DNA of 64,000 nt from Candidatus Terraquivivens yellowstonensis (GTDB lineage Archaea > Thermoproteota > Nitrososphaeria_A > Caldarchaeales > Wolframiiraptoraceae). The notes below the pieces were generated by a model. That model searched no databases. It was given only the letters and a program-made list of their open reading frames with translations, and was not told the origin of the DNA. The DNA lies in NCBI GenBank assembly GCA_023539445.1, contig JAKCEW010000001.1, positions 124,001-188,000 on the forward strand, given 5' to 3'. This document shows, in pieces, positions 27,070 to 32,291 of the stretch; within the stretch, counting starts at the first letter, position 1, and each line of letters begins with the position of its first letter. The position numbers were made by a program, and so were the translations under genes.

Positions 27070-28689
27070 TTGAAGAAGCTAGTAGCCATTACGATCTTAA
27101 TCATACTCGTCTGCACGATGTTGGCGCAGTTTACCTTGGCATCCTCTGAAGAAACCTACGAAGTTGTTAGGAACGTTGAGGTAAGGGACGGTGGTTTAGT
27201 ATACGTCTCGGACAACCTTTACATCGGTCCGGGTAAGACGGCTGTTGTCGGATTTGATATAGCTTTGAAGGATAACCTAGTTGCATTTTATGTCGAACAA
27301 GCTACAATCGAAGCAAGATATGTGGAGGAACCGCCACATCTGTTCTTAATAGAGATGAAGAATACCGGTGAACAAACCGTCAGGGCGAATCTAGTAACAA
27401 TCTTCAAAAACTTGGTAACTGAGGAAGGTTCTAAAACTTTCGTGGCAAATATACCCGTGTTGCCCGTAATCAAGAAAACGGTGACATCTTTCTACATGGT
27501 AGCGCGCTTTCCGAACGGGAGCAAAGTAGAGCTTCCTAAAAGACCGGGTTTCAACTACACTGCCGCGATGGATGGTGTATTCATAGAAGCTAAAGATATA
27601 GATCTACTTGCGCCCACGAATGTTTCTGTGAGGTTTAAGAATGATTATTTTTCAATACTTTTCGTCGAGAAAGCTGAAGTTACGGTTTCCGTCGGAAACC
27701 AGAAAGAGGTATCATTTTATCTCAAAATAGCTAACCATGGCAAATCATCTATAAACGAAATCAAGTTGTTGTTACCAAAATATGCGACTTTACTTAATGT
27801 TAAGGATAGTCTCGGGGCATTGTCTTACAGTTACACACAGGAAAATGGTGTTTTGAAAGTTAAGACAAGGTGGGAAGTCAAAGGTGGTGAGAAGGTATCG
27901 TTCACGGTCGAGTACCTTGAGCCTTATGCCCAAGAACTAGGGAATACGTTCACTCTGAATTATCCGTCCCTGCTGGATGTAGCATACGGAGAATATATCT
28001 TAAAAGTTATTTTACCACCTGGCTACGAATTCAGAGAATCTTCACCGGAACCTGAAGAGTTCGTTAAAGACCAGAGCGGCACTACGACAATCACCTACAT
28101 TAGCAGAAGTGTGGTATCTCTCCAACCAAAATCTACTATAAGTATTAGCTACGTTGCAAGCATGAACTTCGTACAATACCTCCCGTACTTATGGATAGCA
28201 ACATTCGGTGCGCTTTTAACAACCGTCATAACGTACAAACTTTCTCGTAAACCCAAGGTACCTGTGCCCTCAGAGGAACTTAAAGAAACGCTCAAGACCT
28301 TGACTTCCGATGTACTTGGAATTGTAAGGACATGCAAAAAGTTAGCTTCTTCTATTCCTTTAGATAAAAAATCATTAAGCAAGTGGTCAAAAAGTACTTA
28401 CGAAAGCGAACTCGTGGGTATGAAAAGGGATGCAGATAGGATTGGCACATTAAGGAAGAGACTTGGGGGCTTCCCAGAGATTACGTCAAAACTTAGCTCC
28501 CTTGAAGTGCAAATTATGGAATTATTGGGTACCATGACGGCACTCGGCAGGACTGTGGAAGATTTCAGACTGGGAAGAATAGGGAAAGCCGCATACGAAA
28601 GAATAACAAGGGAGTATACAAAGGACATTTCATCACTCACATCCAGAATAATGGACACGACAAAGGATATAGAAGCATCCTTAAGATAA
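27070..28689 (+). CDS. Membrane protein with ribophorin I-like architecture
   Basis: A 539-aa protein with a signal peptide (1-24), a beta-rich outside region (25-365), one membrane helix (370-391) and a cytoplasmic coiled-coil tail (400-539). This order and size match ribophorin I (OST1), a subunit of eukaryotic oligosaccharyltransferase. Several stretches also look alike: YEVVRNVEVRD at the mature N-terminus, LKVILPPGYE before the membrane helix, and a tail ending with a G-K-x(4)-Y-x(3) segment. The resemblance is from memory only. The adjacent sugar-lipid genes fit a glycosylation role. Start TTG. Confidence 0.6.
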   Translation: MKKLVAITILIILVCTMLAQFTLASSEETYEVVRNVEVRDGGLVYVSDNLYIGPGKTAVVGFDIALKDNLVAFYVEQATIEARYVEEPPHLFLIEMKNTGEQTVRANLVTIFKNLVTEEGSKTFVANIPVLPVIKKTVTSFYMVARFPNGSKVELPKRPGFNYTAAMDGVFIEAKDIDLLAPTNVSVRFKNDYFSILFVEKAEVTVSVGNQKEVSFYLKIANHGKSSINEIKLLLPKYATLLNVKDSLGALSYSYTQENGVLKVKTRWEVKGGEKVSFTVEYLEPYAQELGNTFTLNYPSLLDVAYGEYILKVILPPGYEFRESSPEPEEFVKDQSGTTTITYISRSVVSLQPKSTISISYVASMNFVQYLPYLWIATFGALLTTVITYKLSRKPKVPVPSEELKETLKTLTSDVLGIVRTCKKLASSIPLDKKSLSKWSKSTYESELVGMKRDADRIGTLRKRLGGFPEITSKLSSLEVQIMELLGTMTALGRTVEDFRLGRIGKAAYERITREYTKDISSLTSRIMDTTKDIEASLR

Positions 28690-28692
28690 TTA

Positions 28693-29763
28693 TCACGCGT
28701 TACTTTCGGATATTGATTTTTTCAACCACTCAGCCACAACTTTTGCAGGATTGACCATCCTTCGCTTAAGTCTATTAGCAAGTTTCGTTTGAGCATCTCT
28801 AACATCGTCAGCATGCTTTAGTACTTTTGAGATTTCTTTTAGCGCACTCTGCCAATTCTTAAAATGCTTTAGAGCGCCAATGTCTATAAGGTAACGGTGT
28901 ACGGCAGGAAGCCTTCCCGGATAGAGCGATATAGTAGGCACGCCCATCAATGTGGCCTCTTGCGTCATAGTTCCGCCACCACCGATGAAAAGCAACGCAT
29001 AATATAGTATGCTATGATCCGATATCGGTCTATCAAGTACAATGGCATTTTTAACCAAACTTTTTAGCCGCGCTATCTGTTCACCATACCTTGGCAACAC
29101 AACGAGTTTGACATCGTTAAGATTCGATGCCAATTTCTCCACGAGTAACATTATGTATTCTGTATCAACCCCTATAAGGTAGGATGCTTGCGTTTCAGGC
29201 ATTCTTAAGAGGACATAGTTGAACTCATCAATACCTAAATCGTACAATATTCGCTTGTTCGGTCTGAAACCATCTAGCCAAGCCATGGGATCTAACGCTC
29301 TATACTTTAATACTCTGCGACCGTTTATTCCATACTTTATCCACTCGTCTTTTGGAATTATCCATGGTGTGAAAACATAATTTGAAAGTGGGACGCAGTA
29401 TCTGTTAACCGGGGACTCTGGTGTGTCTGACAGAAGAATATGTGGAATGCCCAAACCGAAGGATATCCTCGTCATATCAAGCGAACCGCTTGACACACAG
29501 ATATCAGGCGAATGATTTTCGATAATGTCAACAAGTTCCGCAGTTCTCCTAACACTTGCCTTAAGCTTTCCAAGAAGAGACCCACCACCAAATTCTCCAA
29601 CAACAATAACGTCACTACGACCAACATCCTCCAATATTGGCGTAAGTTGTTCGTATCTTCTAGAGGTAAGTAACGCTTCTACACCGTGCTCCTTTAATGC
29701 TTTCTCTATTGACGTAAAAAACCAAAATTGCTTAGGTGTTAGTATGTCAAACCATACCTTCAA
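28693..29763 (-). CDS. DUF354 glycosyltransferase-like protein
   Basis: A 356-aa protein of the DUF354 family, which has the two-Rossmann GT-B fold related to UDP-GlcNAc 2-epimerase and MurG. MKVWFDILTPKQFWFF at the N-terminus, SSGSLDMTRISFGLGIP, ILLSDTPESPVN and the nucleotide-site motif FIGGGGTMTQEATLMGVPTI are typical. The usual role is unproven but lies in glycan or lipid-sugar assembly. It converges on the ribophorin I-like gene with three bases between stops and is divergent from the ALG7-like gene. Confidence 0.83.
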   Translation of the reverse strand: MKVWFDILTPKQFWFFTSIEKALKEHGVEALLTSRRYEQLTPILEDVGRSDVIVVGEFGGGSLLGKLKASVRRTAELVDIIENHSPDICVSSGSLDMTRISFGLGIPHILLSDTPESPVNRYCVPLSNYVFTPWIIPKDEWIKYGINGRRVLKYRALDPMAWLDGFRPNKRILYDLGIDEFNYVLLRMPETQASYLIGVDTEYIMLLVEKLASNLNDVKLVVLPRYGEQIARLKSLVKNAIVLDRPISDHSILYYALLFIGGGGTMTQEATLMGVPTISLYPGRLPAVHRYLIDIGALKHFKNWQSALKEISKVLKHADDVRDAQTKLANRLKRRMVNPAKVVAEWLKKSISESNA

Positions 29764-29868: not shown

Positions 29869-30858
29869 ATGTCCGCTACATTGTTACTGCTGTTTACTTC
29901 GTTTATTATGTCTGCTCTTCTATCTTACGCATTAGTTCCTTTTGTAAAGAATTTGGCCAAGAAGACCGGTCTATTCGGTGTCGACGTTCACAAAAGTTGG
30001 AGACCGTTAATCCCGAAGATAGGAGGTATAACAATTTTCATCGGTGTTACAGTATCGGTTTTGATAACGTCTTTTTTGTTTAACATGCTTGACAATAGAG
30101 TTTTAGCGTTCATAATATCGACGGAATTGGCAGCGATTGTGGGTTTATGGGAAGATTTTAGGGAACTGAATCCGGTTTTAAAGCCAGTGTTATTAGCGTT
30201 GGTAGGACTCCCGATAGTTTTTATGGGCGCTTACTATCCGTACCCGAATTTACCATTTGTTGGTAAGAGAGCGTTGACGATACTCTATCCGATACTCGTG
30301 CCCATAGCCTTCACGGTAGTGACCAACGCCGTTAACAGTATGGATGTACTTAATGGTTCTATGACCTTCACATCGCTCGTAGCCACATCCACGATTTTTC
30401 TAATAACCTTAATTAAGGGTAACATCCTCCCAGCTTATTTATGTGCTGGGCTCATAGGCTCTTTAATGGTCTTTGCGTATTATAACAAGTATCCGGCAAA
30501 ACTTTTCCCTGGAAACGTAGGTAGCTTGTACGTTGGTGCCAGCCTGATATCTGTGGCAATAATTGGTAGTGTTGAGATAGCTTTACTTGTTGCCATACTT
30601 CCCCAGATAACGAATGAGTTTCACATAATATATTCTATGAGAGGTCTTAGGTCTGCAAAGAATTTATCCGAAAGACCCGTTTTCGTGGAAAACGATATGT
30701 TAACCGCGAACCCATCAAAAAAAGCTCCTTTAACACTCGTAAGGATGCTTACATCCAAATGTAGCCTATCAGAAAGTGAAGTAGTAAAGATGCTTGTTAT
30801 CATTTCGATATTTTCCGCAATTCTTGCACTCATCACAGAGTTTTTCTTCATAAAGTGA
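29869..30858 (+). CDS. ALG7/MraY-type polyprenyl-phosphate HexNAc-1-phosphate transferase
   Basis: An integral membrane enzyme that starts lipid-linked glycan synthesis by moving GlcNAc-1-phosphate (or a similar sugar) from a UDP-sugar to dolichyl phosphate. At least nine hydrophobic helices are seen in 329 aa. The signatures are HKSWRPLIPKIGG near residue 41, AVNSMDVLNG (the acidic NxxD site) and FPGNVGSLYVG, the counterpart of GDxGSLxxG. It heads a five-gene run ending with the MtnA-like gene. Likely first committed step for N-glycans, or for another surface glycan. Confidence 0.9.
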   Translation: MSATLLLLFTSFIMSALLSYALVPFVKNLAKKTGLFGVDVHKSWRPLIPKIGGITIFIGVTVSVLITSFLFNMLDNRVLAFIISTELAAIVGLWEDFRELNPVLKPVLLALVGLPIVFMGAYYPYPNLPFVGKRALTILYPILVPIAFTVVTNAVNSMDVLNGSMTFTSLVATSTIFLITLIKGNILPAYLCAGLIGSLMVFAYYNKYPAKLFPGNVGSLYVGASLISVAIIGSVEIALLVAILPQITNEFHIIYSMRGLRSAKNLSERPVFVENDMLTANPSKKAPLTLVRMLTSKCSLSESEVVKMLVIISIFSAILALITEFFFIK

Positions 30859-30859
30859 G

Positions 30860-31159
30860 ATGAGCACGATGTCAAATATGAAAGATAAAATCTTCACCGT
30901 ATGCATGCTCGCCGTCTTCCTACTTATCGTATGGGGTATGTTCCTTTGCGTACTTTATCTGATGTCGGTTTTTGTAATACCGCTAAGCATGCCGTACCAC
31001 GAACCTTTACTGATTTCGATATACAGGATTGGTGTGGCCTTCATAGTCCTTATAGTTTGGGTTATTGCGTGGCACAGGCTTGCGATATTCTGGTTATACA
31101 GGATTTTGAGGAGGAGTAACAGGTATGGAATGTCTAGACAGAACGATAGTCCAAGTTGA
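30860..31159 (+). CDS. Small two-helix membrane protein
   Basis: A 99-aa protein starting one base after the ALG7-like stop codon. Two long hydrophobic helices (about 12-37 and 48-72) are followed by a basic cytoplasmic tail (RILRRSNRYG). The last 35 bases overlap the next gene, which suggests translational coupling. No family is recognised. Position makes it a candidate partner or regulator of the phosphosugar transferase. Confidence 0.7.
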   Translation: MSTMSNMKDKIFTVCMLAVFLLIVWGMFLCVLYLMSVFVIPLSMPYHEPLLISIYRIGVAFIVLIVWVIAWHRLAIFWLYRILRRSNRYGMSRQNDSPS

Positions 31160-32291
31160 TGTTTCCGTTAATGGTATACCGACGGCCGTCAAGATAGCTA
31201 ACTCAGGATATAAGGTAATTTTTGCCACAACGAGTGATTACATTGTATCCCAGTTAAAGGAGTACCGTCCTTCATTGCATAGGGTACCCAAGCCTATTTT
31301 CACGAAACTTTTATTGGAAGGAATGCTTACAGTAACGACAGATTTAGAAAACGCATTAACATCATCAAAAACAGTACTTGTAACGAGCCACGCTCTGGGA
31401 AGTGAAGAGGAAACAAAAAATGTAATGAACCTCTTTAAACAAATGGCGCCATATATAATGCCAAACTCTTTAATAATCTATGGTGGGCTGGCCCCTCCAG
31501 GAACGATGGAAGAAATTATAGACGTACTTGATAAACACTCGCGGCTCAATGTGGAGAAGGAAATTAACATAACTTTAATTACACCTTTGGATGCCCAAGC
31601 AGAAGCATGCATAATATGCTCGCCCAACTCTGAAGCAGCTAACCTCACGAAGAAGCTCGTATCGGTTTTTATACCATCAGACATGATAAAGCTGTATAAC
31701 AGGTTTAGAGAGGCGGAGGTAGCTAATCTGTTACTCGTGGCAAGACGGGCAATCACAAAAGCACTGTCCTCTTATGCTTTGCTGATGTTTAAACAAATGG
31801 GTGTTGTAATCGAGAATGTTCTGAACCTTTCTGGATGTAAAGCGGCAACGGCAATAGAGGATGATCCATTATCTGAGATGGTGATAAATTATTTGGTATC
31901 TGAAGAGAGAAGACTACCGCAAAGGTTAACGTTCATGCGCAACGTCATTCGGATGAGGAAGTTGTTGCTTGAGGCCATTGCTACGGGTCTTAAGCGAGAA
32001 ATTAAGTCGGCATTAAAAAAGAATAAGGATTTGAGGATTGCATGTGTGTTTGAACGCGAATCTGATAAGGAGCTGATGAACATCATATTACCAAAAAAGG
32101 GGGTTAAAGTTCATTTTTATAGTGTAGACGAGATCGAATCAAAGGTTAATGCAGGTGTAGGGAGAATTATTCCGTTTAGCGCAAATCTAATAATTTTAGC
32201 AGCACAGCCACAAAGCATCTCAGAGCAGATGGTACGCAGGCTGGAGGAAGAAGCCAAGCTTATAAATTTAGGCGGCATCGTCTCCATTTAA
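31125..32291 (+). CDS. Degenerate UDP-sugar dehydrogenase-like protein
   Basis: A 388-aa protein with the layout of UDP-GlcNAc/ManNAc dehydrogenases (WecC type). The N-terminal domain keeps VNGIPTAVKIANSGYKVI and VLVTSHAL, and the middle helix keeps EAEVANLLLVARRAITKALSSYALLMFKQMG (part). However, the usual GxGxxG dinucleotide loop is replaced by VDVSVNGI, and the GGxCLPKD block with the catalytic cysteine is absent. It is therefore probably not a working oxidoreductase, or a much diverged one. It sits between an ALG7-like and a Gfo/Idh/MocA gene. Confidence 0.65.
   Translation: MECLDRTIVQVDVSVNGIPTAVKIANSGYKVIFATTSDYIVSQLKEYRPSLHRVPKPIFTKLLLEGMLTVTTDLENALTSSKTVLVTSHALGSEEETKNVMNLFKQMAPYIMPNSLIIYGGLAPPGTMEEIIDVLDKHSRLNVEKEINITLITPLDAQAEACIICSPNSEAANLTKKLVSVFIPSDMIKLYNRFREAEVANLLLVARRAITKALSSYALLMFKQMGVVIENVLNLSGCKAATAIEDDPLSEMVINYLVSEERRLPQRLTFMRNVIRMRKLLLEAIATGLKREIKSALKKNKDLRIACVFERESDKELMNIILPKKGVKVHFYSVDEIESKVNAGVGRIIPFSANLIILAAQPQSISEQMVRRLEEEAKLINLGGIVSI

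Follow-up and report, generated by a model that had tools for sequence, protein, structure and literature searches.

An OST1 (ribophorin I) homologue with a predicted cytosolic four-helix bundle in the TACK archaeon Candidatus Terraquivivens yellowstonensis

The open reading frame at positions 27070–28689 of a 64,000-nucleotide stretch of Candidatus Terraquivivens yellowstonensis DNA (hereafter the window) encodes what is almost certainly a true homologue of ribophorin I, the OST1 subunit through which eukaryotic oligosaccharyltransferase (OST) contacts the ribosome, across all of its domains. The original prediction, made from the letters of the window, had proposed a ribophorin I homologue on the basis of a signal peptide, an outside beta domain, one membrane helix and a coiled-coil cytoplasmic tail, and had placed the gene beside ALG7-like and other sugar genes in a TACK-type genome. 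The location of the reading frame was exactly as it gave it (plus strand, 539 residues), and the lineage proved to be of the expected type: the genus Terraquivivens sits in the Wolframiiraptoraceae according to NCBI, and the lineage is named Caldarchaeales, with Aigarchaeota as a synonym (PMC9246946). Aigarchaeota supply the ‘A’ of TACK, and the host is hence a TACK archaeon. Because a real relative of OST1 occurs in such an organism, the family is older than eukaryotes and is not confined to Asgard archaea.

The reading frame is a real conserved gene, given that orthologues in other Terraquivivens genomes share 67–75% identity with it (68–75% in the five other sampled genomes of the genus) and that dN (0.14–0.19) is well below dS (0.86–2.0) between the window copy and those of other species. 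Full-length or near-full-length orthologues are found on four database contigs, and the orthologous contigs include Ca. Terraquivivens tengchongensis, T. tikiterensis and T. ruidianensis. The host genome has a size of 1.16 Mb and is 95.8% complete. As called, the gene starts with TTG; at the position of the relatives' MALKKL start the window reads CTG GCC TTG AAG, and the true start is uncertain and may be a few codons away. Coordinates of the gene, its predicted domains and its neighbours are listed in Table 1.

Table 1. The OST1 homologue, its predicted domains and neighbouring genes (window coordinates).
Feature	Position	Strand	Basis
OST1 / ribophorin I homologue, 539 aa	27070..28689	+	PF04597; profile-to-PDB matches
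Signal peptide-like N-terminus, ~residues 1–25	27070..27144	+	Hydropathy peak at 4–22; inferred
First ectodomain beta domain, ~residues 28–193	27151..27648	+	Phylum-profile alignment; low-confidence model
Second ectodomain beta domain, ~residues 194–363	27649..28158	+	Pfam match 217–389; VIA-align; alignment
Membrane helix, ~residues 368–391	28171..28242	+	Predicted helix; hydropathy of relatives; aligned with OST1 helix
Predicted cytosolic four-helix bundle, residues 396–539	28255..28686	+	Model; VIA-align; tail profile to 8WHN
DUF354 protein, convergent neighbour	28693..29763	-	PF04007, E 6.8e-45; adjoins OST1 in 3 of 4 families of the order
PF00953 glycosyltransferase 4 (ALG7/AglH/MraY-type GlcNAc-1-P transferase)	29869..30858	+	E 4.8e-27; synteny
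Small protein, two predicted membrane helices	30860..31159	+	Alignment; conserved context
UDP-sugar dehydrogenase-like protein	31125..32291	+	PF03721, E 4.2e-6, just below cut-off; synteny

Family membership was assessed with profiles, because a single-sequence phmmer search of the window protein against the PDB returned nothing; a first scan of the genome contigs with a single sequence as the query likewise returned nothing. The Pfam family Ribophorin_I (PF04597) matched residues 217–389, scoring 39.7 bits where the cut-off is 25 (E 4.3e-10), and had no match in any of 14 control genomes. When a genus profile of the six Terraquivivens copies was searched against the PDB, human OST1 was the sole significant sequence (E 4.3e-7), and the alignment was colinear (228–491 against 272–562), running from a beta domain through the membrane helix into the tail, part of which it covered. 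A phylum profile of 30 Thermoproteota homologues, picked by Pfam match, recovered human OST1 (E 1.6e-34), yeast Ost1 (2.7e-17) and the ribophorin tail of Ca. Prometheoarchaeum syntrophicum MK-D1 (8WHN; 1.5e-17), and aligned the ectodomain of the yeast protein end to end (19–416 against 12–468). Because those 30 members had been selected by Pfam, the ectodomain and the tail were also searched separately. The ectodomain-only profile found OST1 alone in the PDB (human 2.1e-22, yeast 1.9e-13), and the tail-only profile, which covers the region outside the Pfam domain, found 8WHN at E 2.5e-19, the next match being a coiled-coil protein at E 1.4e-5. The stretch ILPPGYE, singled out in the original prediction for its similarity to ribophorin I, falls within the matched block, where human OST1 reads ILPEGA. 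We also built a profile from ten divergent copies of other Caldarchaeales genera that had not been picked by Pfam. It too ranked 8WHN first; since it reached just E 7.5e-4, assignment of the divergent genera to OST1 relies on synteny and the wider profile together.

The predicted protein comprises a beta-rich ectodomain of ~335 residues, a membrane helix and a helical C-terminal domain of ~144 residues. In the ectodomain, two beta domains akin to those of OST1 follow one another. The first is assigned from the profile, its model being poor, and the second from the profile and from its fold, of which VIA-align superposed 170 residues on yeast Ost1 with Z 13.4 and an rmsd of 3.8. This second domain is the best conserved part of the protein and holds an invariant residue in the alignment, D246 of a DxxG motif. 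A full-length AlphaFold model, built from an alignment of five sequences, was of low confidence (mean pLDDT 59). With this model, the best seven Foldseek matches were all OST1 chains from human and yeast complexes, followed by the beta domains of M1 aminopeptidases, and VIA-align ranked human OST1 first for both the full-length and the isolated tail model. Both checks that the original prediction had proposed for the protein itself, a PF04597 search and a comparison of an AlphaFold model with yeast Ost1, came out in its favour. A signal peptide is predicted from the hydropathy of the window copy and its relatives, and a single C-proximal membrane helix from the predicted structure, an arrangement shared with the OST1 family; the helix is weakly hydrophobic in the window copy, falling under the hydropathy threshold that most relatives exceed.

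The tail is where the original prediction needed amendment: rather than a simple coiled coil it is predicted to form a cytosolic four-helix bundle of the kind found in human and Asgard OST1. Folded alone, it gave four long helices with a pLDDT of 89.3 and a pTM of 0.83, and its best VIA-align match was residues 466–607 of human OST1 (Z 14.6, rmsd 2.9, 136 residues). Since unrelated bundles reach Z ~14 in the same list, this match supports but does not prove the link to OST1, for which the sequence profile carries more weight. Foldseek with the isolated tail returned nothing at E <= 0.001, four-helix bundles matching many unrelated structures; 8WHN was absent from the VIA-align tail list, and neither this absence nor the generic Foldseek bundle list was counted as evidence. 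Two OST1 homologues from one Thermoproteota group (L014:1237-2481 and L024:1246-2514) stop ~19 residues past the membrane helix and are without the cytosolic bundle.

Of 398 Thermoproteota genomes searched with the ectodomain-only profile, 163 (~40%) contained an OST1 gene, among them 39 of the 44 genomes of the host's own order, Caldarchaeales, and all six sampled Terraquivivens genomes; a gene cluster with an ALG7/AglH-type transferase usually lay next to it. A count based on the full-length profile (239 of 398) was dropped as inflated by the helical tail: the extra weak matches, in several families, were gone when the tail was removed from the profile, and we treated them as coiled-coil noise.

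The neighbourhood of OST1 includes the ALG7-like and sugar genes that had been predicted, namely the PF00953 transferase, the DUF354 gene and the UDP-sugar dehydrogenase-like gene. Also downstream is a gene that, going by its sequence alone, encodes a Gfo/Idh-type oxidoreductase. All or most of the gene order OST1–DUF354–PF00953–small protein–dehydrogenase–oxidoreductase recurs in eight loci (L033-L036, L057, L058, L062 and L065), and OST1 and DUF354 alone occur together in three more (L063, L064 and L066). This neighbourhood is kept even where the OST1 proteins, outside the genus, are just ~22–28% identical. Neighbours differ in two loci from another family of the order (L059 and L060) and in loci from beyond the order, where OST1 lies near asparagine synthase-like and histone-deacetylase-family genes in L067, L070, L074 and L075 (identified by Pfam in L070 and L075, and in L067 and L074 by open reading frames of like length and order). 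Throughout most of the order the DUF354 gene points towards OST1, and its product is a possible candidate for a glycosyltransferase of the lipid-linked glycan pathway. The small gene that follows the ALG7-type gene encodes a conserved 99-residue protein and overlaps the next gene, the UDP-sugar dehydrogenase-like one; its product matched no Pfam family and no PDB structure, and its identification as Ost5 was not supported.

A search for STT3, likewise proposed with the original prediction, found one copy in the host genome (L031:631-2730, 153 bits), on a different contig from OST1. It carries the WWDYG motif and a double sequon, DNSTTNST; double sequons have been reported for TACK and Asgard AglB and for most eukaryotic Stt3 (PMC8993221). 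Beside it, in divergent orientation, is the gene for a 169-residue membrane protein (L031:2919-3428, contig C18), and the same pair is present in four related loci (L090, L095, L096 and L099). Among 15 aligned relatives of this membrane protein in the order, 14 matched the membrane part of OST3_OST6 (PF04756) at E <= 0.01 (best 2.7e-8), and the best PDB match of the family was the membrane domain of MAGT1 (E 0.014). We call the host's protein OST3/OSTC-like, as its own copy scores just E 0.059 against PF04756. It has no thioredoxin domain, and eukaryotic OSTC/DC2 likewise lacks one. A direct PF04756 match (L032) was rejected as OST3/6, in which four membrane helices come after the thioredoxin domain; it is an ordinary thioredoxin, with 138 residues, a WCMPC motif and no membrane helices. 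Ost5 (PF05251) was above the cut-off in none of the 44 genomes of the order, with weak matches in bacterial controls too, and OST48/WBP1 (PF03345) matched none of these 44 genomes and no control genome.

We consider it probable that the OST1 homologue is an accessory subunit of STT3 in a small archaeal OST, with its bundle meeting the ribosome. In this reading it is a membrane-bound, non-catalytic component of an OST at the cell surface, built on the single STT3/AglB, and would have the small OST3/OSTC-like membrane protein alongside. The beta domains outside the cell would offer the polypeptide to STT3 or hold it in place there, while on the inner side the bundle would be in contact with a ribosome during translation, such that glycosylation could take place as the protein emerges. 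We infer complex formation, ribosome contact and co-translational glycosylation from eukaryotic OST1 and from MK-D1: the cytosolic domains of MK-D1 and human OST1 bind ribosomes in pull-downs (PMC11417166), and the net charge of +7 on the Terraquivivens tail (residues 396–539) fits a putative ribosome contact.

The main rival to this accessory role accepts a true OST1-family protein but sets it apart from STT3, for example as a ribosome-contacting chaperone of the translocon or of membrane proteins at SecYEG that takes no direct part in glycosylation. Such a function would sit comfortably with an OST1 gene that does not adjoin STT3, a tail resembling a ribosome-binding domain, the lack of detectable OST1 in over half of the sampled Thermoproteota, and the case of an archaeon like S. 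acidocaldarius, which has STT3 but no PF04597 match. We nonetheless judge it unlikely, as the neighbourhood of GlcNAc-1-P transferase-type and sugar enzymes is kept in three of the four families of the order and an OST3/OSTC-like partner adjoins STT3 in the same genome.

Convergence of a generic archaeal surface protein, made of a DUF11-like beta-sandwich and a coiled-coil tail, on the form of OST1 is already disfavoured and very improbable. There is a weak DUF11 match, and the tail profile also picks up coiled-coil proteins, CdvA among them, at E 1e-5; however, the ectodomain profile, which contains no coiled coil, finds OST1 alone in the PDB, the tail favours 8WHN over CdvA by 14 orders of magnitude, and the domains have the sequence and sizes of those in human OST1 along the colinear phylum profile, as had been predicted. 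A DUF11-type identity was rejected on the DUF11 score itself (E 0.0019, below the cut-off) together with the OST1-only ectodomain result. The outcomes that the original prediction had named as telling against it, no profile match to ribophorin I or an unambiguous hit in some other surface family, were not seen: PF04597 matched, and the ectodomain had OST1 as its sole significant family in the PDB. It is highly improbable that one lineage recently acquired the gene from Asgard archaea or eukaryotes by horizontal transfer, or that the assembly is contaminated, as we found no points in favour of either and both are opposed by the distribution of OST1 across the genus, order and phylum and by neighbours conserved even at 20–28% identity.

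Non-catalytic OST subunits were long held to be eukaryotic, and a 2016 survey saw no promising prokaryotic candidates for them (PMC4973528). A 2023 paper referred to earlier reports of Ost1 in Asgard archaea (PMC10307638), and in 2024 a single sentence listed OST1 and OST3/6 in eukaryotes, TACK and Asgard archaea (PMC11417166); no other papers treating TACK OST1 were found in the openly licensed literature. The original prediction had presented ribophorin I as a subject usually confined to eukaryotes and Asgard archaea. Its TACK copy stands, but the novelty is limited, given the 2024 report and the presence of OST1 in a large share of the sampled Thermoproteota. The Terraquivivens protein is a well-supported addition to a known family, and its evolutionary implication was already announced in that report. 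That many Thermoproteota have a complete OST1, ribosome-side domain included, suggests that the subunit predates the Asgard archaea. More tentatively, the last ancestor shared by TACK and Asgard archaea may possibly have had a translocon-coupled OST composed of STT3, OST1 with a ribosome-contacting bundle and an OST3/OSTC-like subunit. If so, co-translational glycosylation would be an archaeal trait inherited by eukaryotes and not an Asgard or eukaryotic invention. Thermophilic OST1 proteins should suit structural and ribosome-binding work.

Finally, we compared the Terraquivivens protein with OST1 of known structure. Yeast Ost1 (6c26, 6ezn and 7oci) is colinear with it over the full ectodomain but, at 476 residues, ends approximately at the membrane helix and has no cytosolic bundle. 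The Thermoproteota group of L014 and L024 resembles the yeast form, with an ectodomain and a membrane helix and no bundle. Human OST1 (RPN1; 6s7o chain E and 8b6l chain O) has the same two outside beta domains, membrane helix and four-helix bundle at an identity of ~15–20%. It is located in the ER, whereas the archaeal homologue is predicted at the cell membrane, where none of OST48, Ost5 and full-length OST3/6 was detected to accompany it. Ribosome binding has been demonstrated for the human and MK-D1 tails (PMC11417166) and is predicted for that of Terraquivivens. The MK-D1 host is an Asgard archaeon in which TRAP subunits and OST3/6 have been reported, and its ribophorin I is, like the Terraquivivens protein, an archaeal OST1 with a four-helix bundle (PMC11417166), the structure of which (8WHN) was the first match of our tail profile.
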